NCBI RefSeq assembly: GCF_009749525.1
Contig: NZ_WOAC01000032.1
Location: forward strand, 1 to 44,053
Direction: 5' to 3'
From: Mesorhizobium xinjiangense
GTDB lineage: Bacteria > Pseudomonadota > Alphaproteobacteria > Rhizobiales > Rhizobiaceae
DNA length: 44,053 bases
Shown here: positions 2,183-44,053 of the stretch, one piece after another
How positions within the stretch are numbered: position 1 is the stretch's first letter
How the letters are laid out: each line of letters starts with the position of its first letter
Translations under genes and position numbers: made by a program
The notes under the pieces: generated by a model
What the model saw: only the letters and a program-made list of their open reading frames with translations
Database searches by the model: none
What the model was told of the DNA's origin: nothing

Positions 2183-3526
2183 CTATTGCTCGACCGCGTA
2201 GCATGCGATCTTCTTCTTCTTCAGGGCCGAACAGGCATCCCATGCCGCCGTCTTCGTTTCGAAGCCACTGTAGCGGGCGCGATGAAAGGTCGTTCCGTCC
2301 TTTTCGAACACCACCGTAAAAGGCGAAGCGTTGGCCAGAATGGGCCCGGCGGTCTCGCTGGTCCGCTCAAGCACGGACAGCGCATCCTGCTTTGTGGGTG
2401 TCGAGGCGACCTGCACGACCCAGCCCTTCATGTCGGTCGATGCCGTTTGAACCGGGTCGACGGAGCCTTGCGCGTCCTCGGTCCCCGCGGCGATGGCCTG
2501 GAGCGCCGGCCGGGCATCGGGCTGCGGGGCGTAGGCGGTCTGTATGCTCGCTGCCGCGTCGTCCGCGATCTGTGGCCGCGTGGCCGGTGTCGGGATGTCG
2601 CGGCGCGGCAGATTGGCCGCGGCAACAGCAACCGCATTGCTCGGCGAGATGACGCGTTTGGCCACCAGCGGACCGCTGTCACGTCTCGACGCCTTGGGCA
2701 GGGTGCGCTGAATGAGGTCGGCCATGTGCGCGTCTCGGCTGCGGCCGGTCTTGCCGCCCATGACCACAGCCACGATGCTGCGCCCGTCGCGCTTGACGGA
2801 GGCGACGAGATTGAAGCCGGCGGCACGGATATAACCTGTCTTGATGCCGTCGACGCCCTTTACGCGCCCCAGCAGCTTGTTGTGGTTGCCCATGCGTCGC
2901 TTGCCGAAGGTGTAGGAGCGGGTGGAGAAATAGGAGTAATACTGCGGAAAGTGCTCACGCAGCGCCAGGCCGAGCGTCGCCATGTCGCGCGCGGTGGTCT
3001 TCTGCGCGGAGTTGGGAAGGCCCGAGGCGTTGCGGAAGGTCGTGTGCTTCATGCCGAGGCTGTGGGCCTTGCGCGTCATCATGCGGGCAAAGCCGCTTTC
3101 GGTCCCACCCAGATGCTCGGCCACGGCGGCCGCGGCGTCGTTGGCCGATTTGGTCACCAGCGAATAGATCGCCGTTTCGACCGTGATCGATCCGCCGGCG
3201 CGCACGCCCAGCTTCGTCGGCGGCTGCGCTGCGGCATGAGGCGAAAAGGTGATGCGCGTATCTTTCTTGATGCGGCCGGCCTGCAGCGCCTCGAAGATCA
3301 TGTAGAGCGTCATCATCTTGGTCAGCGAGGCCGGATAGCGGTACTCGTCGGCCTGATCGGAGTAGAGCGTCTCGCCGGTATTGGCATCGATCACGAAGCC
3401 TGCATATTTCGCGGCCTGGGCGGGTACGGCGGCCAGCATCGCGACCGCGCATAGGAAAGCGATGAAAGACCTGGCGACCGCCTGCCGAACCTTGAAGCTC
3501 AAAATGTTCGCCTTACGCACTGTCAC
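2183..3526 (-). CDS. D-alanyl-D-alanine carboxypeptidase with SPOR domain (peptidase S11)
   Basis: This is a 447-residue penicillin-binding protein of the DacA/DacC type, which trims the terminal D-Ala of peptidoglycan stem peptides in the periplasm. A signal peptide (about residues 14-39, cleavage near AQA-AK) precedes the S11 catalytic domain. The three active-site motifs are present: S67-LT-K70, S127-A-N129 and K229-T-G231. After a proline/alanine-rich linker (about 280-365) the C-terminus (about 368-447) has the shape of a SPOR domain, which binds denuded glycan strands at the division site; this combination is common in rhizobia. The start taken is GTG at 3526, behind a weak AGG; a second GTG two codons later is also possible. 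Confidence 0.9.
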   Translation of the reverse strand: MTVRKANILSFKVRQAVARSFIAFLCAVAMLAAVPAQAAKYAGFVIDANTGETLYSDQADEYRYPASLTKMMTLYMIFEALQAGRIKKDTRITFSPHAAAQPPTKLGVRAGGSITVETAIYSLVTKSANDAAAAVAEHLGGTESGFARMMTRKAHSLGMKHTTFRNASGLPNSAQKTTARDMATLGLALREHFPQYYSYFSTRSYTFGKRRMGNHNKLLGRVKGVDGIKTGYIRAAGFNLVASVKRDGRSIVAVVMGGKTGRSRDAHMADLIQRTLPKASRRDSGPLVAKRVISPSNAVAVAAANLPRRDIPTPATRPQIADDAAASIQTAYAPQPDARPALQAIAAGTEDAQGSVDPVQTASTDMKGWVVQVASTPTKQDALSVLERTSETAGPILANASPFTVVFEKDGTTFHRARYSGFETKTAAWDACSALKKKKIACYAVEQ

Positions 3527-33723: not shown

Positions 33724-34482
33724 TCAATACCGCCGGATCAACCCGACGAGCCGGCCCTGCACCTTTACCCGGTCAGGCCCGAATATGCGCGTCTCGTAGG
33801 CCGGATTAGCCGCTTCCAGCGCAATAGAGGCGCCCTTGCGGCGGAAGCGCTTCAACGTCGCTTCCTCCTCGTCGACCAGCGCCACGACGATGTCGCCTGG
33901 ATTGGCCGTCTGGGCGTCTCGTATGATGACCGTGTCGCCATCGAAGATGCCGGCCTCGATCATCGAATCGCCTTTGACCTCGAGCGCATAGTGCTCACCA
34001 CCCGAGATCATGTCGGGCGGCACCGAGACGGAGTGCGTCTGATGCTGGATGGCGTCGATCGGCACACCGGCGGCGATGCGGCCCATCACTGGAATGGACA
34101 GGGCAGCAGCCGCTTCGTCATTGCTGGCGGTCCGGCCAGGCGGCGAAGCCGGTTTGCGTCCGAGACTGCCTTCAATGACGCTGGGCTCGAACTTGCGTGG
34201 CCCGCCCAGTCCAGGCCCGCCCAGTCCAGGCCTGCCCAGTCTAGGCGCGCCCAGTCCAGGCGCGATCGAGTCGGGAAGACGCAGAACCTCCAGCGCCCGT
34301 GCCCGGTTGGGCAATCGTCGAATGAAGCCGCGTTCCTCCAACGCCGTGATCAAACGGTGGATGCCGGATTTCGATGCGAGGTCCAGTGCCTCCTTCATCT
34401 CGTCGAACGAAGGTGGAATGCCGGTTTCCTTCATCCGTTCGTGGATGAAGAGAAGCAGATCATGTTGCTTGCGTGTCAGCAT
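33724..34482 (-). CDS. lexA: SOS repressor LexA with an expanded hinge
   Basis: LexA (252 residues) represses SOS genes and self-cleaves when RecA is activated. The N-terminal winged helix (1-70) reads [19 protein letters not shown]. The cleavage site is A138-G139, the catalytic serine S173 (GDSM) and the lysine K211. Between the domains, residues 75-95 form four 5-residue repeats of the type PGLGG encoded by tandem 15-bp units. ATG 34482 gives the rhizobial N-terminus and has GAGGG at good spacing; ATG 34488 is too close to that site. Autoregulation is supported by the operator at 34533. Confidence 0.96.
34202..34261. repeat. four tandem 15-bp repeats in the lexA hinge region
   Basis: Copies lie at 34202-34216, 34217-34231, 34232-34246 and 34247-34261. 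The first two are identical (CCGCCCAGTCCAGGC) and the others differ at one to three positions. The unit is a multiple of three, so the array stays in frame and encodes PxLGx units in the linker between the DNA-binding and protease domains. Confidence 0.92.
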
Positions 34483-34525
34483 CGCCATCCCTCAAGAATC
34501 ATCAGCAAACAAAACCAGAACAAAC

Positions 34526-34552
34526 ACTATATGTTCCATTCTTGTTCCGCAA
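34526..34552 (-). promoter_or_regulatory. lexA promoter with SOS box
   Basis: GTTC (34533-34536), seven bases, GTTC (34544-34547) is the alphaproteobacterial LexA operator GTTC-N7-GTTC. On the minus strand it lies between a TATAGT -10 (34531-34526) and a TTGCGG at 34552-34547 that could serve as -35, about 50 bases before the lexA start. This is the arrangement expected for autorepression. Confidence 0.85.
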
Positions 34553-34829
34553 CCGATAAATTCCGGTAAAGCGCTATGGGGCCGAAAATTATTTGGCACT
34601 GGGCAGGAGTGCGATCCATAATTGTTCCCCGTTCCCCCGTCGGTTGAACGTCACTGTTTTTATTGATGTTTCCGATCTGTGGCAGGGTTCCCAATTTGCC
34701 GTGGCTTGTTCCTAATTCGTGCCCAACGACAATTAATTATAGGTCGTTGAAATTACGCCGGATAATAGGGAACCGGGAACCAAAGCGCTCCAAACCGTGC
34801 CGGAATAGGGAACAGAATTAGGAATAGGT
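34553..34829. repeat. putative left end of the Mu-like element with clustered GTTCCC/GGGAAC sites
   Basis: This gene-free stretch holds three GTTCCC copies (34624, 34631, 34687) and three GGGAAC copies (34768, 34775, 34808). Two of each form 13-base doublets at 34624-34636 and 34768-34780, which are inverted repeats of each other with one mismatch. TTCCTAATTC (34709-34718) is likewise inverted at 34815-34824. Clustered, oriented sites outside the repressor gene are what transposase or repressor binding sites at a Mu-like end look like. The exact terminal base could not be fixed without the right end or an empty-site genome. Confidence 0.6.
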
Positions 34830-35315
34830 CTAAGGGTTATCCGACTCAGCCAAGAACACGTCTAACGCATGCGCGACTGAGGGGAGACCGCCCCTTTCGA
34901 TGAGTGTGCGGATCATCTCCGCCATCGTAAAGCTATCCTGGGAGACAAAGCCAATCTTGCGGATGGCATCAGTGATTTCGCCCTCACAGTGCAGAAATGC
35001 TTGCGACCATTTCAGGTATCGATCCCGATTCTCGACTGGATCGCAGCGCCCCTTGTTTGCATCGTAGAGGCTCAAGAACACTGCCAAAATAGCCTGTCGC
35101 TCTCGACTGGTATGGGCATATCGGAATTCGTTGCTAAACGATGCCTCCGGTCCGAGTTCGTCGGCCAGCCGTAGTTCTACGGATAGCGGGACGTTTCCCC
35201 TTCTGCGCCATGTCGAAATTGTCTGCTTTGCGACCCCAATTCTCTCGGCGAGCTGCACGTCACTGTTGACGCCTGTCAGCTGTTTCAGCGTGTCTAGATA
35301 TTCGTTGACGTGCAT
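34830..35315 (-). CDS. Mu-like prophage repressor (CI-type helix-turn-helix)
   Basis: This 161-residue protein has an N-terminal helix-turn-helix (VQLAERIGVAKQTISTWRRRG, about residues 21-41) like CI-type phage repressors, then a helical C-terminal region that contains no LexA-type Ser-Lys protease motif. It is divergent from the ner-transposase operon, the position of the c repressor in transposable phages. ATG 35315 (MHVNEYLDTL) is taken as the start; an in-frame TTG 11 codons earlier would run into the operator region. By analogy it should silence the early promoter and bind the repeats beside its own 3' end or the 53-base divergent gap. Confidence 0.75.
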   Translation of the reverse strand: MHVNEYLDTLKQLTGVNSDVQLAERIGVAKQTISTWRRRGNVPLSVELRLADELGPEASFSNEFRYAHTSRERQAILAVFLSLYDANKGRCDPVENRDRYLKWSQAFLHCEGEITDAIRKIGFVSQDSFTMAEMIRTLIERGGLPSVAHALDVFLAESDNP

Positions 35316-35368
35316 ATCGGCGGTTTGGCCAGTTGACGTTGTCTTCAAAGTGCGTACTCGTATGCAGA
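35316..35368. promoter_or_regulatory. divergent early control region of the Mu-like element
   Basis: The 53 bases between the repressor and the Ner-like gene must hold the early promoter and operator. A TTGACG at 35333-35338 is a good -35 on the plus strand, but the matching -10 is poor. No dyad was clear enough to call an operator. Confidence 0.35.
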
Positions 35369-35593
35369 ATGAATACTATTGACCTCAGCCTATCACAATT
35401 CGACGCCGGACCAAGCCTGCTAATTGCGGTGCGCGCTGGCTTCGTGGCCTCCGGCAGTTCGCTCAACCGTTGGTGCATGGAGCACGAAGTCTGCCGGATG
35501 TCGGCTGTCTTCGCGCTGACAGGCAAACGTAATGGACCGAAGGCTATTGCCCTTCGGGCGCAGCTGATCCGCGAAAGCGGAATTGCCACATGA
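35369..35593 (+). CDS. small Ner-like DNA-binding protein
   Basis: This 74-residue protein resembles the short phage proteins that precede MuA in rhizobial and Rhodobacter Mu-like phages. It has a helical core RAGFVASGSSLNRWCMEHEV followed by VFALTGKRNGPKAIALRAQLI, a helix-turn-helix-like pattern. By position it fills the role of Ner, a negative regulator of early transcription. The ATG at 35369 is followed by MNTIDLSLSQ; the stop overlaps the transposase ATG (ATGA, 35590-35593). Confidence 0.65.
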   Translation: MNTIDLSLSQFDAGPSLLIAVRAGFVASGSSLNRWCMEHEVCRMSAVFALTGKRNGPKAIALRAQLIRESGIAT

Positions 35594-37611
35594 AGGCATG
35601 GTTGACTACAACCGAGTTTGCTTCTCTGGCGGGCATGTCAAAGCGCAGGGCGCGGAAGATATGCCAGCAGATCGGGGACGGGCATCGGTTCCATTGGGAC
35701 GGCGCAGCTCTAGAAGTCGGTGTAATTCACGGCCGGCCGGGACGAAGTGGCAAGAATTACATCGTCAAGGCATGCAGCCTTCCCGACTATCTCCAGGAGC
35801 GTTTGAAGGCCTCTCAAGCGGCGCTTGAAGGCCGCTCATTGACCATTTCCGGCAGCCCCGCAGCGCGTGAGCGGACATGGTGGCTGCATATTCTTGGTCC
35901 TGCGCTGGAGCATCCGAAGGGATCGGCTGAGCGTAAGGCTGCGCTCGACGCCATCGCGGCCGTCAGGCATCTGGACTGGCATGGCCGGCGCATCCCGATC
36001 AGCCTGCGTACCTTACAGCGCCGGCTTGCACGCATGGAAGGCGAGGGGAGTATCGGCCCACTTGCCCGAGCCGGCCGGGCCGACAAAGGCAAGAAGCGCG
36101 TTGTCGTCTCCCGCGCCTGGGACAAGGCAGTCCCCTTCGACGACGCCACCAAAGCCAAACTGGCGGAGAATCTTCGCCAGCACATACGCGGCCTGATCAA
36201 GGCCGGCATGAAGGGCAAGAACCTGTGCTTCTTCGCGAGCAAGTATCTCCGCGAAATGACGGAAGCCCACGGTTTCCGACCGAACGATGAAGCCGTGTTG
36301 ACGCGCGCCTGCAAGGTTCCGACGCATCTTTGCGATGCGGAGGCTATCTACAAGAAGGTTCACCGCCACCGCACCGACCGCAAGGCGAGCGTCGACGCTG
36401 GTCCACACATCACGCGCACGACTAAGGGTTTGCGGCCGATGGAATGGGTGGTTGCGGACGTTCACCATTGCAATGTGCTGGTCGAGAAGGAAAGCGGCCG
36501 TCTCGGTACCGCAAAGGCGATTTCTTTCCTGGACGTGGCGACCCGCCGCGTGTGGACCGATCTCGTGTTCTTCGATGGCAGGGGCGGCGTCCGCAATATC
36601 GACGTCATCGAGACGTTCAAAGGCATGGCGGCCGATCCAGCATTCGGCCTCCCGGAGTTGATCTATTTCGACAACGGCAAGGAGTACAACTTTGCTGATT
36701 TCCTTGACGACGCGCTTCAACTCGCCATACCGCTTGCCGGCGGCGACGGCCGCCAGTCCCGTATCGTCCGCGCACAGCCATACAACGCCAAGGCCAAGCC
36801 GATCGAGGCATGGTTCGGCCATTTCGAGCAGCAATACTTGTCTCTGTGCCAGGGCTATCGCGGCGACGATATCGTCAACCCGAAGCGGCCGGCTCTCGGC
36901 AAGCTTCCCGCGCCCTATCTTGGTGGTTTCGATGCCTTCCGTACCCGGTTCTTTGGGCTTCTGAAGGGATATGAGCACATTCCGCAGAGGGGTGATCTCG
37001 CCGGCCGAAGCCCTGCGGAAGCATTTGCCGAGCATGTGAACACCGGTTGGTCGGCGGCGGTCGCCGAGCCTGCACACCTCAATTCGGTGTTCGCCCGGCC
37101 TGTCACGCGCAGGCTGGTCGGCGGCCGTTTCGAACTGGATGGGCGCAAGGGCGGCTGGAACTGCCCTGCGTTGGACCGCTACCTCGGCGATACGATCGTC
37201 GTCCGCGTGCCGATCTACCACGCCTACAACGAGGTGAACGTTTATACGCCGGAAGGTGCCTTCATCGGGATTGCGAGCCCGGAGGAAGTTTATTCCTTTG
37301 GCGATCCACGCGGCGCTCGGCATTCAGCCCGCCGCAAAAAGGAGCACGCCGCCGCCCTTCGCCGGCTTGAGAAATCGGCCCCTACCATCGACGCAGCCGC
37401 GCTGATCGTGGCCCACGGCGAAGAACAGATGCCGATGCTTCCTAATGCGCCCCGCGCGGTCGTTTCCGTGACGACGGGCGAACGCACCGCCAACGTCATC
37501 GTGCCGGAAGGCAAGCCACAGTCACCGGAACAGGCACTGCGTGAGGAACGCCGGGAAATCCAGAAGCTTCGGGAACAGGTTGCAGCCAACCTCAAGAGGG
37601 CGGCATCATGA
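35590..37611 (+). CDS. Mu-like transposase (MuA, DDE family)
   Basis: The transposase (673 residues) has an N-terminal winged-helix Mu-type domain (WLTTTEFASLAGMSKRRARK). The DDE catalytic triad reads D290 (VVADVHH), D361 (YFDNGKEYN) and E406 (KPIEAWFGHFEQ), in the order and approximate spacing of Mu D269, D336 and E392. A Mu-type C-terminal barrel and a basic C-terminal tail for contact with MuB follow. All three catalytic residues are intact, and the length is close to Mu A (663), so the protein may be active. It is coupled by overlap to the ner-like gene and to muB. Confidence 0.95.
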   Translation: MKAWLTTTEFASLAGMSKRRARKICQQIGDGHRFHWDGAALEVGVIHGRPGRSGKNYIVKACSLPDYLQERLKASQAALEGRSLTISGSPAARERTWWLHILGPALEHPKGSAERKAALDAIAAVRHLDWHGRRIPISLRTLQRRLARMEGEGSIGPLARAGRADKGKKRVVVSRAWDKAVPFDDATKAKLAENLRQHIRGLIKAGMKGKNLCFFASKYLREMTEAHGFRPNDEAVLTRACKVPTHLCDAEAIYKKVHRHRTDRKASVDAGPHITRTTKGLRPMEWVVADVHHCNVLVEKESGRLGTAKAISFLDVATRRVWTDLVFFDGRGGVRNIDVIETFKGMAADPAFGLPELIYFDNGKEYNFADFLDDALQLAIPLAGGDGRQSRIVRAQPYNAKAKPIEAWFGHFEQQYLSLCQGYRGDDIVNPKRPALGKLPAPYLGGFDAFRTRFFGLLKGYEHIPQRGDLAGRSPAEAFAEHVNTGWSAAVAEPAHLNSVFARPVTRRLVGGRFELDGRKGGWNCPALDRYLGDTIVVRVPIYHAYNEVNVYTPEGAFIGIASPEEVYSFGDPRGARHSARRKKEHAAALRRLEKSAPTIDAAALIVAHGEEQMPMLPNAPRAVVSVTTGERTANVIVPEGKPQSPEQALREERREIQKLREQVAANLKRAAS

Positions 37612-38375
37612 ACACCAATTTCGTTGAAATCTCCGCCGTCAGGATCATCCACACTGCGATCGACCGCGCGATGGCATGGCAATATCCTTCGCGCGTGATC
37701 AGTTGTCCCGGCATGGGAAAGACTACGGCGTTAAGGCATTTCGAGCGCGAGTTGGGTGCTGTCTATTGCCTGGTCAAAGCCCAGCACAAGGACACGGCCG
37801 GCATGTATCTCATGCTGCTAGAAGCCTACGGGCTACGCCGCCATGGGAAGACCGCCCGCGACGACGCCAATCAGGTTTATCGCGAACTCGCCCGCACGGA
37901 ATTCGTCCAGGACACATTTCAGCTTGTCCAGCATGAGCGGCCGCTTCTGGTGGACGAGTACCAGACCCTTGAAGCGACCGCATTGCGCGAACTGCTCAAC
38001 ATCGTTGAGGAATGCCGCATTCCACTTGTCCTGTGTGGTAACGGAGAACGGCTCGCAAAAGAGCGAAAGGCTGATCGTGCGGCGCTGGAGCAAGTGTGGA
38101 ACCGCGTTCGACCCACTTATCGCGTCGATCCTCCCGACGCCGATGACTGCCGCTCCATTGCCATTGAATTCGACGTCGAATTTGACCGCGCCACCTATGC
38201 GGCCCTCGCAGCCTACGGCAGTCGGTCCAGCTTGCGCGATCTCGTTTGCCTGCTGGGCGAGGCGAGGGCCGTCGCCGGCGCGGGTGTCCTCAAGCTTCAC
38301 CATATCGAGACAGCCGTGCTGACTATTCATGACAGCCGAGACGCACTCAAGCGCCTTGCCCCGGCTCATGCCTGA
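37608..38375 (+). CDS. MuB-like ATP-binding target selection protein
   Basis: This 255-residue AAA+ ATPase has Walker A CPGMGKTT (G35-T40) and Walker B LLVDEYQT (D116, E117). MuB proteins form filaments on target DNA, deliver it to MuA and give target immunity. It lacks the N-terminal helix-turn-helix domain of phage Mu B (312 residues), like the shorter B proteins of D3112-type phages. Its ATG overlaps the transposase stop (37608-37611). Confidence 0.92.
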   Translation: MNTNFVEISAVRIIHTAIDRAMAWQYPSRVISCPGMGKTTALRHFERELGAVYCLVKAQHKDTAGMYLMLLEAYGLRRHGKTARDDANQVYRELARTEFVQDTFQLVQHERPLLVDEYQTLEATALRELLNIVEECRIPLVLCGNGERLAKERKADRAALEQVWNRVRPTYRVDPPDADDCRSIAIEFDVEFDRATYAALAAYGSRSSLRDLVCLLGEARAVAGAGVLKLHHIETAVLTIHDSRDALKRLAPAHA

Positions 38376-38453
38376 ATTTGCTTACCGAGACCCCAATCTG
38401 CGCATTTGTATCGTGTTGCGCTGGCTCAACCCTTGAGACTAGGAGACCGAAAC

Positions 38454-38906
38454 ATGCCAGACACCAACGCCGTAGAATTCAACGTTGTCGAGACGTTCGA
38501 CGCCTTGGGGAACACAGCCGACATGCTTCGGGCGTTGGGCGTCATGATGACGTATACGGTGCGTTCTGGCGACGATGTGAGCGAAATCAGCGACGGCATG
38601 ATGCGGCTGATCGACCAGCAATGCGATGACCTGAAGAACATCGACCGGGCATTGCGCCGGCAATACCGCGACATAAAGGAGAACAAGCTCGCAATCAGGG
38701 ATTTGCGACTGGTTGCAGAATGGAGCGGGACGTCTCCGAAACTCGCGGCAAAGGTCATCAACATCGCGACGGGCATCGATCTTGATCCCGCCTCAGCAAT
38801 GGCAGAAATGCTCAAGTCTGCCCGGCGGGAAGAAGCGGAGGGGCGCGAGTTCAACGAGACGTTCGGCTTCGATATCGCGCACCCAAGCGCAACCGCCAAC
38901 GGATAG
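38454..38906 (+). CDS. unrecognised early protein of the Mu-like element
   Basis: This 150-residue protein has no motif I can name. Residues about 1-45 read as helices (ETFDALGNTADMLRALGVMM), the middle is a charged helix (DDLKNIDRALRRQYRDIKENK), and the C-terminus has a possible HTH-like stretch (WSGTSPKLAAKVINIATG). The start is ATG 38454, with AGGAGA eight bases upstream. It lies between muB and the gp16-like gene, where transposable phages carry variable early genes; no Gam or DUF3164 homologue is seen. Confidence 0.75.
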   Translation: MPDTNAVEFNVVETFDALGNTADMLRALGVMMTYTVRSGDDVSEISDGMMRLIDQQCDDLKNIDRALRRQYRDIKENKLAIRDLRLVAEWSGTSPKLAAKVINIATGIDLDPASAMAEMLKSARREEAEGREFNETFGFDIAHPSATANG

Positions 38907-38910
38907 GGCC

Positions 38911-39351
38911 ATGACGAGACAATCTCGCCGGAGCGGGCACCTGCCCGCCAAGAGGATTGCCGTTATCCATGTCGCAAGAAAGCAACTGGGGCTGGACGAT
39001 GAGTCCTATCGAGACATTTTGCATCAGTACGGCGGCGCTCGCAGCGCTGCCGAGCTCGATATTCTAGGCTTTGAGAATGTGATGAGCCGGTTCGAGCGGC
39101 TTGGATTTCGTTCAACCTGGACCAAGCGGACATTCGGCAATCGAGCGGGCATGGCCAGCCCGGCACAGATTGAATACATGCGCCACCTCTGGTGTCGTTA
39201 TGACCCCGACGATGTAAACGATGCGCATCTGAATGCTTGGTTGTTCAAATACCATCACGTTTCGGCGCTGCGCTTCATCAGTGCCGAGAAGGCGGAAAAG
39301 GTCATTCCCGCGTTAAAGGCAATGGCGGGCCGCAAACAGGATCAAATTTGA
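38911..39351 (+). CDS. Mu gp16-like regulatory protein (DUF1018/GemA)
   Basis: This 146-residue protein matches the gp16/GemA family of transposable phages. It has the core IAVIHVARKQLGLDDESYRDIL and the tail pattern GMASPAQIEYMRHLWCRY. Members are reported to modulate host gene expression and lie directly upstream of mor, as here. ATG 38911 follows the previous stop by four bases, so the early genes from ner to this one could form one operon. Confidence 0.85.
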   Translation: MTRQSRRSGHLPAKRIAVIHVARKQLGLDDESYRDILHQYGGARSAAELDILGFENVMSRFERLGFRSTWTKRTFGNRAGMASPAQIEYMRHLWCRYDPDDVNDAHLNAWLFKYHHVSALRFISAEKAEKVIPALKAMAGRKQDQI

Positions 39352-39723: not shown

Positions 39724-40167
39724 ATGCCTAATCTCGCCCGAGACCAAAACGGCTCTCCGGTGATGATGAATAGCAGCTCCGACTTCAGCAGGGACATACT
39801 TGGCGAGATCGAAGAAGTGGCGGGCCTCAACGCCGCGCTGAAACTGGCGCGCCTGCACGGCGGGACTTCGGTCAGCATTCCGCACAAATGCCCCGACGAT
39901 CATTGGCTGGTGGATGCGGTCGGCCGCGAAGCTGCCGACGCCATCTGCGACCATTTTGCCGTCGGCAACACCGGCGCTCGCATCATCATGCCGATGGGCG
40001 TGGAATTCTCCAGGCACGCCAAGCGCATGGAGATCATCAAGCTGATCCAGCAGGGCCATTCCGCAGACCAAATCGCGAAGGCCGCAGGAGTCCACGTCAG
40101 GACGGTTTATCGCCACAGGGCCAACTTCAAACGACGGCTGAAGAGGCTCGGGATCAAGGCGGCCTGA
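39724..40167 (+). CDS. mor: Mor-family middle transcription activator
   Basis: This 147-residue activator is of the Mor/C family. The dimerisation region (about 25-90) includes HGGTSVSIPHKCPDDHWLVDAVG and the family strand ARIIMPMG. The C-terminal helix-turn-helix is SADQIAKAAGVHVRTVYRHR (about residues 112-131). In Mu, Mor turns on the middle operon, whose product C then turns on the late genes. Here the next genes are already structural, so this protein may drive them directly. The start is ATG 39724. Confidence 0.88.
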   Translation: MPNLARDQNGSPVMMNSSSDFSRDILGEIEEVAGLNAALKLARLHGGTSVSIPHKCPDDHWLVDAVGREAADAICDHFAVGNTGARIIMPMGVEFSRHAKRMEIIKLIQQGHSADQIAKAAGVHVRTVYRHRANFKRRLKRLGIKAA

Positions 40168-40168
40168 T

Positions 40169-40261
40169 ATGGAAACTTCTCTTCTCATTCGGCATGTCGA
40201 TCGCGCGCCGGCACATGCCAGTGCCCAAACTGGTCATTGCCGCGAAGGGGGCGACCAGTGA
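40169..40261 (+). CDS. possible 30-residue junction peptide
   Basis: An ATG one base after the mor stop opens a 30-codon frame that ends by GTGA overlap with the gpI-like gene. The frame (METSLLIRHVDRAPAHASAQ...) has no recognisable family. Its continuity and the coupled end fit a relict formed when genes between mor and gpI were deleted, but a chance frame is equally possible. Confidence 0.25.
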   Translation: METSLLIRHVDRAPAHASAQTGHCREGGDQ

Positions 40262-40854
40262 GCACCTCCGAGAAGCCGAACCTGTCTATTCCGATGTGGG
40301 GCCATCTTCTCCCTGCGGGGCCGCAGATCGAGGCACGCGATGGACGAAAATGGACCTTTGACGCTGCTGAGATTGTTGCGGCCTTCCGAGCAAACGGAGC
40401 GTCATTGCCGGTTGATTACGAGCATGGCCAGGACCTGGCCGCGCCAAAGGGGCTGCTCGCGCCCGCTGCCGGCTGGATCGAGGACGTGGACGTCAGGGAC
40501 GGAGCGATCTGGGCGCAGATTGAATGGACCGAGCGCGCCGCAAAGCTGATCACAGACCGAGCATATCGCTTCCTGTCGGCCAGCATGCGAACGACCTCTG
40601 ACAATCGCGTCCTTTCGCTGCGCGGTGCCGCGCTGGTCAACCGTCCAGCGCTCAGGGTGGAGCCGCTTCAGACAGAGCCGGACGAGGCCGAGACGGCCCG
40701 CGAAGCCTCACAGTTGATCTGTCTCGCACGTGAGCATCTGGCGGATCAAACCGCCCTGGGCCGCAAGCTCACTTTGACGGACGCAATCCTTAGCGTGCGC
40801 GATGGCGCGCATGGCCTTCCCCACCTTCCACAAGACCGAAAGGAAACCCAGTGA
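40258..40854 (+). CDS. short Mu gpI-like capsid protease/scaffold
   Basis: This 198-residue protein matches the N-terminal protease part of Mu gpI: HLLPAGPQIEARDGRKWTF, the conserved LPVDYEHGQDL, APAAGWIEDVDVRDGAIWAQIEWTERA, and YRFLSASMRTTSDNRVLSLRGAALVNRPAL. Full gpI proteins are about 350 residues because of a C-terminal scaffold; here only ~50 residues follow the protease core, so most of the scaffold is missing. I choose GTG 40258 because AAGGGGG lies six bases upstream. The stop overlaps the capsid start. Confidence 0.85.
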   Translation: MSTSEKPNLSIPMWGHLLPAGPQIEARDGRKWTFDAAEIVAAFRANGASLPVDYEHGQDLAAPKGLLAPAAGWIEDVDVRDGAIWAQIEWTERAAKLITDRAYRFLSASMRTTSDNRVLSLRGAALVNRPALRVEPLQTEPDEAETAREASQLICLAREHLADQTALGRKLTLTDAILSVRDGAHGLPHLPQDRKETQ

Positions 40855-41828
40855 CCGATGCCAATCGTCCTTTTCCAACCGATGCGACCCTGACGGCGAT
40901 CGCCATCGGCTACAAGAACCGCAGCCACGAGATGATCCATAAACAGGTGCTCCCCGAAGTACCGGTGCTGTCGGAGCGCTTCAGCTGGTTGAGCTACCCC
41001 ATTGCCGAGGCCTTCACCGTGCCTGAAATGGAAGTCGGCCGGCGCGGCCGGGTGAACGAAGTGGAGTTCACCGCAGTGGAGCACGAAGGCAAGGTCCGGG
41101 ACTACGGCCTCGATGACGTGATCCCGATCACGGATATCGATGAAGCGGCGCGCGCTCGCAAAGAAAAGCGCGCCTCCTACGATCCCGAAGCGGCGGCTGT
41201 CGAAGGACTGACCAACCTGGTCGAGCTCGGACGGGAAATCCGCGCCGCTCGATTGGTCCAAGATGCCGACAATTACGATGCAGGAAGACGGCTCGTCATC
41301 GCAACGGCAACCGACAAGTTCTCGGATTTCGCGAACTCCGATCCATTCGAAGTCCTCAATGCCGGCATTCGCAAGCCGCTCGTCCACCGAGCAAACACCG
41401 TCTCCATGGGCGAGGAAGTATGGGAGACGCTGAAGCGCCATCCGAAGCTGATCAAGGCCGTGAAAGGCGGACAGACCGAAGATGGTGCGATCAGCCGCGC
41501 CCAGTTTGCCGAACTCATGGAGATTGACCCGGAACGTCTGCTGATCGGCGTTTCTATGGTCAACACGGCGCCGAAGGGCAAGCCGGTCAGCCTGACCAAG
41601 GTTTGGGGCAACTCAATCCAGATGCACTACGTCGATGAGGTCAAGCGGTCGCCCGAAGACAACGTGCTGACGTGGGGCTTTACGGCGAAGCTCGGTCAGC
41701 GTCTTGCCGGCAAGATCGATGCGCCCGAGGTCGGCCTGAAGGGTGGCAGACGCGTGCGCGTCGGTGAGAGCGTCACCGAGGTCGTTTGCGCCAGCTCGCT
41801 CGGCTACATCATCGAAAATCCGATCTAG
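40851..41828 (+). CDS. phage major capsid protein (Mu-like element)
   Basis: This 325-residue protein resembles major capsid proteins of transposable phages of the Rhizobiales and Rhodobacterales. It starts MTDANRPFPTDATLTAIAIGYKNR and contains PIAEAFTVPEMEVGRRGRVNEVEF, the helix-rich middle with AARLVQDADNYDAGRR, and the end strand CASSLGYIIENPI. Its neighbour is the gpI protease, the expected order. It starts with GTG 40851, with AAAGGA upstream, overlapping the gpI stop. After it one expects tail genes (J, K, L); instead a defence-type gene follows. Confidence 0.82.
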   Translation: MTDANRPFPTDATLTAIAIGYKNRSHEMIHKQVLPEVPVLSERFSWLSYPIAEAFTVPEMEVGRRGRVNEVEFTAVEHEGKVRDYGLDDVIPITDIDEAARARKEKRASYDPEAAAVEGLTNLVELGREIRAARLVQDADNYDAGRRLVIATATDKFSDFANSDPFEVLNAGIRKPLVHRANTVSMGEEVWETLKRHPKLIKAVKGGQTEDGAISRAQFAELMEIDPERLLIGVSMVNTAPKGKPVSLTKVWGNSIQMHYVDEVKRSPEDNVLTWGFTAKLGQRLAGKIDAPEVGLKGGRRVRVGESVTEVVCASSLGYIIENPI

Positions 41829-42052
41829 CGATTTGACGCTGCCAGTCCGAAATCTATCTGGGGCGGAGCTTTCGCGTTGATCTCACTGAGGCGGGCGGGC
41901 ACGAACGATACAGAGCCGACGTTCAATGTGTTTTCTCCATAGCGGCACTTCGATGAGGGCTTCTCAACTCTTGCCCATGCTGATGATTGCTTAATAATGT
42001 AGGCAAACGATGCGTTGGGCCGCGAGTCAAGGAACATTGGAGGACGGGGGAA
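41829..42052. other. AT-shifted gap between the capsid and SIR2 genes
   Basis: In these 224 bases composition shifts from GC-rich to AT-richer, most clearly after about 41930, which marks the boundary of the acquired cargo. No copy of the left-end GTTCCC doublet is seen, so this is not obviously the right end of the element. A promoter for the SIR2 gene probably lies around 41980-42010 (TTGCTTAATAATGTAGG), but no clean -35/-10 pair was found. Confidence 0.5.
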
Positions 42053-44053
42053 ATGTCTTTACCAGAGGCGTCACAAATTGAAGCAGGCACGGCAATCCTC
42101 TTTCTTGGAGCTGGCTTCTCTGCAGAAGCAACGAACATAAACGATGATAAGATAAAGGACGTCCAAGGTCTTGTTAAATTTCTACTGGAGGAAATCGGAG
42201 AAACGTCCATTGAATGTTACGATCTTGAGACGGCTGCCGAAGAATATCAACAATTCCATGGCAAGAGCGGAGTTGAGAAGTTAACTGCTGCCCTGCACGC
42301 GAATTTCCGCTCAAAAACACCAACAGAAGATCAAAGGGTTATTGTCTGTCAGCCATGGTATAGAATATACACCTCGAATTACGACGATGTAGTCGAGAAT
42401 ATCTGCTTTGAGGAAAAGAAACCGATCACAACTAGAGAGGTTACGGATCCCGTCTTCCCGCCAATGCCTGACACGACCCAGCTCATTCACATCTATGGAA
42501 ACATCACCCGAGCAGCGGCCGATGAGTTTAGGAAGCACTTTCTGCTAACGGAAAGTCAGAGGGACAATTCCCCGTTTATCAAGTCGCCATGGATGCGACG
42601 GTTTCACGACGATGTCCTAACTGCAAGTAGCGTCGTCTTCGTTGGTTTCTCGTTGAATGATATTGATATTCGACGACTCCTTGGCTCACTGCCAAGAGAA
42701 GTTCTCAGCAAGGTACATTTCGTTACCAGCCCGTCCACAAGAAAGCCTGTCATCACTCGCATGAGCAAGTACGGTTCTGCGCATCCTATCGGTATGGCAG
42801 CATTCGCAACGTGCTTGGGATCGAAGAGAACCGGGGCTCCGGCTCGGGAGTACACTGCATTGCCGATGTCCCTTCAGGAACTGGAGTTTTCTCCGGCGCT
42901 TAAGGCATCTGTGGCATCCCGGGACATCGAGAATCTCATGATCTCGGGCGATATCGACCTTGACAAATTGTCCAATGCCGACATTTCAGGCGAGCCTGGC
43001 GGATACACGATCACTCGTAGTCTAAACTCATATACTAGGGCGATTCAAAACTCCTCTGGAGAGCGACCGATTCTTGTCCACGGTGATATAGGCAACGGTA
43101 AGACTGTCTTCGCATACCAGCTCGCATATCATTTTTCCCAGAAGAATCATCGGATATTCAAGGTTCGGCGTGAGCCAGAGAACACAGGAGATGTTCTGAG
43201 TTATCTTCAGGCGCTGGATAGTCCCGCATTGGTGGTATTTGACGACGTAATGCGCTTTCCGAAGCTTCCCTCCGCAATTGTCGCCATGCAGCGCAAAGAT
43301 ATCACTGTACTCGCCACTGTACGGTCAATAGTCGTAGATACTGCGCACGACAGGGTTCGCGCACGTCTGGGAAACGCTACGCCGATCGAGATCGATCTGA
43401 ACATGCCCCTAAAGGACGAAAACCACAGGATAGTGCGCTATTTGAATGAGAATGGCCTCTGGGGTACCCAGTCCGACTTGACAGAGTCTGAGAAACTAAA
43501 CCTCGTAGAGAAAAAGTGCGGCGGTCAGCTTCGCGATGTAGTCCTAACTCTTTATCAGACCGGTTCGCTTCACAAGCGAGTGGAAGAACTCCTTCTAAAT
43601 CTTCAGGGTATAGACAATTCATCGCGAGAAGTAATTGCCTTCAGCGCTCTTCTAAGTTATGCTGATTTCGAACACTTATGTAGATTCTTAGATATTGCAG
43701 ATCTCGTAAATTACTCTGGTATACTTGAAGAGCTTAGAGAAACATTGGTAGAGAATGAACTTGGAACGTTGGTCCGACTTGAGACAGGGGACCTAGTCGT
43801 CCGCTCTCCAGCTCTGGCCCAGTTCATCCTTGTTCGCGTTTTTGGGCTCGAAGCTGTACTACACGTTGTCAAACGGGCACTGGGTACTCTCGATCGATAC
43901 TATACCGACGAAGCGGATTTCGTGAGGCTCGGAAAGGCCTTGCTGAAATTTTCCCTATATGGCCCCCTAAGGCCTGTTGAGATTCAGGATTCCACCCGCG
44001 GCTTGAACATGATTCAAGCTTCGGATGGAACGATTCGTACTGACGGACGCCCA
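42053..44053 (+). CDS. SIR2-STAND NTPase, Avs5-like antiphage protein (3' end beyond window)
   Basis: The frame runs 667 codons from ATG 42053 (GGAGG upstream) to the window edge without a stop. The first ~230 residues are a SIR2 domain: L18-GAGFS-23 for NAD binding, T107-SNYDD-112, H146-IYGN-150 with the candidate catalytic histidine, and VGFSLNDIDI. A P-loop NTPase follows, with Walker A G344-DIGNGKT-351 and Walker B ALVVFDDV (D397, D398), then a helical region of STAND type. This is the architecture of SIR2-STAND (Avs5) proteins, which sense a phage product and then deplete NAD. Codons are distinctly AT-richer (AGA, ATA, TTA, CTA) than in all neighbours, implying separate acquisition. The C-terminal sensor domain is not visible. 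Confidence 0.88.
   Translation, partial: MSLPEASQIEAGTAILFLGAGFSAEATNINDDKIKDVQGLVKFLLEEIGETSIECYDLETAAEEYQQFHGKSGVEKLTAALHANFRSKTPTEDQRVIVCQPWYRIYTSNYDDVVENICFEEKKPITTREVTDPVFPPMPDTTQLIHIYGNITRAAADEFRKHFLLTESQRDNSPFIKSPWMRRFHDDVLTASSVVFVGFSLNDIDIRRLLGSLPREVLSKVHFVTSPSTRKPVITRMSKYGSAHPIGMAAFATCLGSKRTGAPAREYTALPMSLQELEFSPALKASVASRDIENLMISGDIDLDKLSNADISGEPGGYTITRSLNSYTRAIQNSSGERPILVHGDIGNGKTVFAYQLAYHFSQKNHRIFKVRREPENTGDVLSYLQALDSPALVVFDDVMRFPKLPSAIVAMQRKDITVLATVRSIVVDTAHDRVRARLGNATPIEIDLNMPLKDENHRIVRYLNENGLWGTQSDLTESEKLNLVEKKCGGQLRDVVLTLYQTGSLHKRVEELLLNLQGIDNSSREVIAFSALLSYADFEHLCRFLDIADLVNYSGILEELRETLVENELGTLVRLETGDLVVRSPALAQFILVRVFGLEAVLHVVKRALGTLDRYYTDEADFVRLGKALLKFSLYGPLRPVEIQDSTRGLNMIQASDGTIRTDGRP

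Follow-up and report, generated by a model that had tools for sequence, protein, structure and literature searches.

A broken Avs5-like SIR2-STAND gene, probable cargo of a compact Mu-like element beside lexA in Mesorhizobium xinjiangense

Between the SOS box of lexA and moeA, the genome of Mesorhizobium xinjiangense carries a compact Mu-like element, at whose right end lies an Avs5-like SIR2-STAND gene that was probably acquired from elsewhere as cargo and has since been inactivated. The gene is split by an IS5-family element, continues on another contig and contains an in-frame TGA there. The defence gene itself is of a known kind and one more broken member of a known group; the element that carries it matters more. 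The window, i.e., the whole stretch of DNA analysed (44,053 nucleotides), is one contig of the assembly (C26) from end to end, and its features are collected in Table 1 together with a gene of related loci.

Table 1. Features of the window and positions of a small gene in related loci
Feature	Sequence	Position	Strand	Remarks
lexA (host), left flank of element	window	33724..34488	-	LexA chains in PDB, E 9e-31
SOS box GTTC-N7-GTTC	window	34533..34547		sole one in the 44-kb window; element starts ~27 bp to the right
Left end of Mu-like element	window	34575..34830		starts TATGGGGCCGAAAATTATTT; exact end base placed by eye
CI-like repressor gene	window	34830..35348	-	PF07022, 41.3 bits
MuA-like transposase	window	35590..37611	+	phrog_310, E 1.3e-45
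MuB-like AAA ATPase	window	37608..38375	+	phrog_296, E 3e-21; PF13401
Small conserved ORF	window	38406..38906	+	common to related elements; start uncertain; no family match
GemA-like gene	window	38713..39351	+	PF06252, 81 bits, domain in residues 94-207; start uncertain
Mor-like late activator	window	39724..40167	+	phrog_836, E 7.6e-22; PF08765
Mu I-like head maturation protease	window	40237..40854	+	PF10123, 127 bits, profile 2-144 of 330
Major head protein gene	window	40851..41828	+	phrog_1005, E 5.4e-86
Avs5-like SIR2-STAND gene, 5' part	window	42053..43966	+	638 codons: SIR2, NTPase, start of C-terminal part
Left end of IS5-family element inside SIR2-STAND gene	window	43967..44053		target C-TA-G; IS proper from about 43970; contig end
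Small conserved right-end gene	L066	16858-17181
Small conserved right-end gene	L068	16579-16938
Small conserved right-end gene	L070	17036-17431
Small conserved right-end gene	L073	17726-18043
Small conserved right-end gene	L079	17621-17905

Domains and composition of the SIR2-STAND gene

The frame opens with ATG at 42053 behind the ribosome-binding stretch GGAGGACGGGGG, the gene's own binding site that the first-pass annotation had noted, and the 638 codons of its SIR2 and NTPase part are free of stops. The SIR2 motifs GAGFS (residue 19), SNYDD (108), HIYGN (146), and GFSLND (198) are followed in the same frame by Walker A GDIGNGKT (344, with K350) and Walker B VFDD (395), all of them as first described. 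In the profile searches that had been suggested as a check, Pfam places SIR2_2 (PF13289) at the N-terminus with 52.6 bits against a cut-off of 24.5, and nSTAND_NTPase5 (34.4 bits against 34) and nSTAND3 (27.8 against 27.2) lie just above their cut-offs. The best structural relative, the solved SIR2 protein 9jap_A, covers query residues 9–641 with an E-value of 5e-39; this near full-length match and the domains support the original identification as a SIR2-STAND protein of the Avs5 kind. With E values up to 1 allowed, the PADLOC Avs5 model, with which comparison had also been proposed, gives no hit to the window protein. It matches one of seven homologues (E up to 0.01), and thus covers part of the group only.

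The protein shares with Avs5 (AVAST type 5; PaAvs5, EfAvs5) the SIR2 domain of PF13289, an nSTAND3-type NTPase and a C-terminal part with the W-x-Q of its relatives; it departs from Avs5 in having Tyr in place of the catalytic His or Asn, in its broken gene and in escaping the PADLOC model. The 9jap_A chain, annotated as a SIR2-like domain-containing protein, has 869 residues and an NG motif, whereas the window protein has YG and is interrupted. An 849-aa protein from a Duffyella plasmid matches this chain closely along the whole length (1763 bits), and we take 9jap_A to be, probably, EfAvs5 of Wang et al. 2025.

As had been claimed, the gene lies directly behind a Mu-like capsid gene, the gap being 224 bp, and its codons are atypically AT-rich: the third-position GC (GC3) of the window part is 0.505, against 0.74–0.85 for ten host genes and 0.62–0.78 for eight genes of the Mu part. 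A promoter-like site occupies 41971–41998, ahead of the gene. Relatives are scattered, occurring in five of 61 related genomes (the window's own included), in eight of 385 genomes of the class (own included; six of the other seven matches are weak) and in 22 plasmid records, and the window protein is about 22–36% identical to the homologues found. The phage collection contained no relative, scanning viral sequences and genomes for the SIR2 protein gave none, and no SIR2 homologue was matched in the stretches compared of 26 related element loci. The scatter of relatives, the lack of a match in these stretches and the gene's own base composition suggest that the element acquired it separately. 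The open-licence literature yielded no report of SIR2 genes as cargo of Mu-like prophages. A homologue on a Providencia plasmid (L034, 3893–4867) is annotated as short and stands just before ISEcp1 and a carbapenemase gene.

The catalytic position

The first-pass annotation had suspected a variant NADase pocket. The pocket is variant; however, the residue concerned is Tyr148 of IHIYG, with which the canonical catalytic His aligns in alignments to solved relatives, and not His146, which lies two residues before the catalytic position; of the seven relatives with HG or NG, six also have a His at that earlier place. The catalytic motif thus reads YG here, and by eye HG in three and NG in four of the seven homologues; a change from His or Asn to Tyr is possible by one base change. 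Muralidharan et al. (2026, PMC12931631) give HG and NG as about one to one among Avs5. They also report for PaAvs5-1 that the catalytic Asn changes N153A and N153Q abolish defence, that N153H retains part of it, and that deleting at least 17 C-terminal residues abolishes it. Judging from these mutants and deletions, Tyr148, the TGA, and the IS would each make activity unlikely.

Interruption of the gene and its continuation on a second contig

The gene had been read as open to 44053, the end of the contig; its coding part ends at 43966 and is followed by IS sequence, i.e., the gene is interrupted and not merely unfinished. The final 87 bases of the window, which the genome repeats with 100% identity at seven further sites, form the end of an IS; residues 640–667 of the open frame are accordingly IS sequence. 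Left ends were located at eight genome places, all starting CTAAGGCCTG, and the matching plasmid copy is annotated as an IS5 family transposase. The right end has eight matches in the genome, one of them at a contig start without a flank; among the seven readable flanks, six have the end CAGGCCTTAG, as does the plasmid copy, and the remaining one has CAGGCCTTAA. On both sides, the IS ends fit a C-TA-G target with TA duplicated. The gene-breaking IS is multicopy in this genome (contigs C26, C37, C40, C44, C53, C25, C47, and C22); one copy has an internal deletion, which causes the IS sequences to branch 87 bp inside the element.

The flanks were tested with a profile built from seven homologues. 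Contig C17 alone among the seven right flanks continues the frame with the expected domain, and the other six flanks supplied 69 control segments. The window part matches profile positions 22–627 (E 1.7e-88) and the first C17 fragment positions 638–714 (E 2.4e-19), and the best control segment reaches E 3.4. An in-frame TGA stands at C17 350–352, 88 codons past the IS split; the second fragment, behind this TGA, matches positions 730–782 with E 0.05, below the inclusion threshold, and because this match is weak, the TGA could be near the natural end of a shorter gene. GC3 is nearly equal in both gene parts (0.505 in the window, 0.495 on C17). Extension of the contig, which had been proposed as a way to reach the C-terminal domain, therefore did lead to it, on C17, split off by the IS and with a TGA in frame: the C-terminal repeat sensor is not part of the same polypeptide, being encoded on C17, separated by the IS, and cut by the TGA. 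Before the insertion, the gene would have had a C-terminal repeat sensor domain.

As the contigs end inside the IS, we infer the junction that joins C26 to C17 across it. Downstream on C17 follow moeA, moaC, trpC, and trpD (named by eye). In a genome of the same genus (G002), lexA adjoins moeA at a distance of about 110 bp, as would be expected if C26 and C17 were the two sides of one insertion; in two others (G001, G003), moeA was not found within roughly 1.5 kb beyond lexA, and the lexA–moeA order is therefore seen in one of three same-genus genomes. A search of the genome for a second copy of the SIR2-STAND gene returned one match, the gene itself; hence, the gene is most likely dead.

The Mu-like element

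Host genes on C26 include clpA, rpsB, bamA, gltX, comEC, and lexA, named by eye, lexA having also been tested. The 16-mer CAACGACAATTAATTA of the left end (34724–34739) recurs at the right end, at C17 864–879; the longest run common to both ends in 200 shuffles was 11. The SIR2-STAND gene is thus flanked by the element's end at lexA and, ahead of moeA, by an end sequence that matches it, which supports the reading of the gene as cargo of the Mu-like element. A 5-bp target duplication with TG...CA ends was searched for at the element ends and not found, AGCGC occurs by eye at both junctions, and as inverted repeats the ends score no better than shuffles (score reached by 234 of 300).

The major head protein is 57.8% identical to the capsid protein of Ochrobactrum phage POA1180, and the head maturation protease is short, with 205 aa against 193–343 aa in six related loci (five above 300). 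Neither Pfam nor phrog profiles recognised terminase, portal, or tail genes among the ORFs of the element, and the terminase, head morphogenesis, and tail proteins of POA1180 as queries found no match in it. The statement of the first-pass annotation that the defence gene lies where tail genes are expected is therefore misleading. MuA has distant matches in the phage collection (two records, 23.6%), and a viral scan with it gave no match.

Proposed history and its alternatives

We propose that an Avs5-like gene was separately acquired and came to be carried at the right end of the Mu-like element. By analogy with its family, the intact protein would have sensed a phage protein through its C-terminal repeat domain, as in Avs5, assembled under the drive of the STAND NTPase, and hydrolysed NAD+ through the SIR2 domain, thereby ending infection. 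An IS5-family insertion at codon 639 would then have inactivated the gene, with the TGA 88 codons on and the Tyr in place of the catalytic His/Asn as further lesions. Of the original suggestion that the gene is cargo by which the element protects its host, the cargo part stands; present protection is unsupported in view of the IS, the TGA, and the Tyr.

The principal alternative is that the Mu-like element ends before 42053 and that the SIR2-STAND gene adjoining it belongs to the host or to an island. The base composition of the gene is sharply unlike that of the Mu part, no SIR2 homologue was matched in the stretches compared of the 26 related loci or in the phage collection, and neither the window part nor C17 1–1000 matches a small gene that eight related loci have close to their right end, all of which would suit such a boundary. 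Against it stand the left-end 16-mer, which recurs behind the SIR2 gene just before moeA and exceeds the shuffle maximum of 11, and the lexA–moeA distance of merely about 110 bp in G002; we hold this alternative to be unlikely.

Cargo since inactivated remains our preferred reading, and the two other alternatives concern its inactivation. That the gene still functions, either because the IS is recent and confined to a subpopulation or because the 638-codon part acts without the sensor, would agree with the long open SIR2 and NTPase part, the good ribosome-binding site, and the promoter-like site, but the lesions other than the IS, i.e., the TGA in the C-terminal part and the Tyr at the catalytic position, count against it, as does the loss of defence in PaAvs5-1 when the last 17 residues are missing or the catalytic Asn is replaced by Ala or Gln (PMC12931631), and we consider it improbable. 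Least credible, to the point of being very improbable, is an intact gene to which IS sequence was attached at 43967 by wrongly joined contig ends: a contig end 87 bp into a repeat is a usual assembly break and the two IS versions diverge exactly there, yet the C17 right flank is in frame and collinear, the IS ends fit the C-TA-G target on both sides, and the TGA is independent of the IS.

Gene content of related elements

Brucella endophytica has a related element at lexA (L066) in which hardly any space for terminase, portal, or tail genes is left between the recognised ones. Since several related lexA elements are similarly compact, the missing late genes are unlikely to be due to a chance deletion in a single Mu prophage. 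Two elements at lexA, L080 and L091, seem larger and are possibly complete phages. The head genes are of different types, namely Mu gpT in G018, G461, and G474, phrog_1005 in the window, and Phage_cap_E in L073; the comparison of loci showed no head gene in the lexA-linked L068 and L070. G474 showed no protease. A protease and a capsid gene without recognisable terminase or portal thus occur in the window as well as in several of its relatives, and the capsid family at this place differs between elements. A capsid gene in such company raises the question of whether these elements are satellites of complete transposable phages.

The region behind the capsid or GemA gene is variable, holding, among others, a DUF2971 protein in L067, a DUF2806 protein in L070, a tape-measure-like protein in G474 and, as weak matches, HEPN (L068) and HNH (L073) proteins; VgrG-like and DUF4123 proteins lie near the element in G018, where their membership in it is putative. 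The small conserved gene near the right end, present in eight of the 26 loci (Table 1 gives five), has about 105–130 codons, often with a CxxCGK start; two versions of it matched no Pfam family. On an IMG/VR viral contig (L049, 4356–6520), Mor, protease, and head genes are packed together in the order of the window; a ParB-like gene precedes them, and MuA has no match within the stretch compared. The head gene of this contig is 63–65% identical to that of the window.

Insertion beside SOS boxes

A MuA alignment scan of 84,980 species genomes yielded 26 loci, of which 21 have at least 3 kb upstream; L072, L075, L083, L088, and L090 have less and were left out of the count. Together with our own locus and G018, G504, G818, G1080, G1104, and G889, these make 28 evaluable loci, each counted once (G461 is L066, G474 is L077, and G888 is L073). 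Weak MuA matches (G481, G004, and G134, the last one partial) stand outside the count, and another, G028, has no lexA. A GTTC-N7-GTTC box adjoins the element in 20 of the 28 loci, many of them from other genera: 17 times at lexA, twice at recA and once in front of a 28-codon ORF (G889, L107). In the scan, lexA is directly upstream in 11 of 21 loci and recA in two (L082, L084); our own locus, G018, G504, G818, G1080, and G1104 are also at lexA. The lexA loci are the window (34533–34575), L066–L071, L073, L077, L079, L080, L091, L096, L097, L108, L109, and G018 in L057. The strong MuA matches G018, G461, and G474 adjoin comEC–lexA in the same orientation and with a similar compact order, and the element also sits between lexA and moeA in L068, L077, L097, and L109. 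The eight loci that are not beside a box comprise L074, L076, L081, and L086 in Mesorhizobium and L078, L085, L087, and L089 in Methylobacterium and Methylorubrum; in L076, the nearest box is about 2 kb off.

Over the 20 loci, the left end lies about 4–45 bp from the box, with ends placed by eye, and starts with TGGAGGCGC or TGGAGGGGC in seven, the rest being looser. In all 20, the side from which MuA is read faces the box. A distance that varies on a side that stays constant suits a mechanism in which the box is recognised and insertion occurs close to it better than it suits site-specific recombination. In the 5.26 Mb of the window's genome, such boxes number 141 and matches to the reversed control pattern 78; assuming about 60 bp on one side per box, random insertion would fall beside a box approximately 0.2% of the time. 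Three loci that were seen after the homing idea had been set down all fit it (two at lexA, one elsewhere).

In the MuA tree, Phyllobacterium L067 groups with Rhizobium L069 (support 100/100), whereas the LexA tree joins L067 to L068 (86/85) and places L069 in a group with three further loci, of which two bear the name Rhizobiaceae (96/96). The conflict for this pair, moderately supported in the LexA tree, favours repeated arrival at one site, and makes a single ancient insertion inherited vertically less likely. Pairwise identities of MuA and LexA correlate (r 0.72 over 78 pairs), and some vertical inheritance may accordingly have contributed.

On balance, we lean towards a compact Mu-like family that homes to LexA operators, whose members would insert on the upstream side of a GTTC-N7-GTTC box, some 4–45 bp off. 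The target would be lexA, recA, or a different SOS gene, the orientation would be constant, and the operator would be left intact. Many members would combine transposition and capsid genes, with no recognisable packaging genes among them, with a cargo slot of variable content, filled here by the Avs5-like gene. The elements could be phage satellites or domesticated elements stationed at the SOS switch. Targeting by the transposase would then be the reason for the site. In the open-licence literature, covered by titles and the starts of abstracts, we found no report of Mu-like elements homing to lexA, recA, or SOS boxes, nor any account of such homing by rhizobial MuA elements; homing to SOS boxes looks new.

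Comparison with known transposition systems

The element resembles phage Mu and transposable phages such as POA1180 in its CI, A, B, GemA, Mor, protease I, and head genes. It differs from POA1180, whose annotation includes terminase, head morphogenesis, and tail genes, in that none of these is recognisable, and from both in ending beside the SOS box of lexA and in having a SIR2-STAND gene behind the head gene. Phage Mu is the classic example of a transposing element that inserts almost at random. Tn5053/Tn402, the res-site hunters, and Tn7 combine a MuA-like transposase with an AAA partner and use fixed sites in one orientation; as in these transposons, insertion here is at a short distance from a recognised sequence and in one orientation, although the recognised site would be a LexA operator. 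If a Mu-type system does select LexA operators, it would offer a handle on how the MuA/MuB pair chooses its targets, and siting at the SOS switch, if true, bears on why an element settles there. The 28-codon ORF of L107 (reverse strand, about 3100–3250) lies behind tandem SOS boxes and may resemble SidA, the SOS-induced division inhibitor of Caulobacter.
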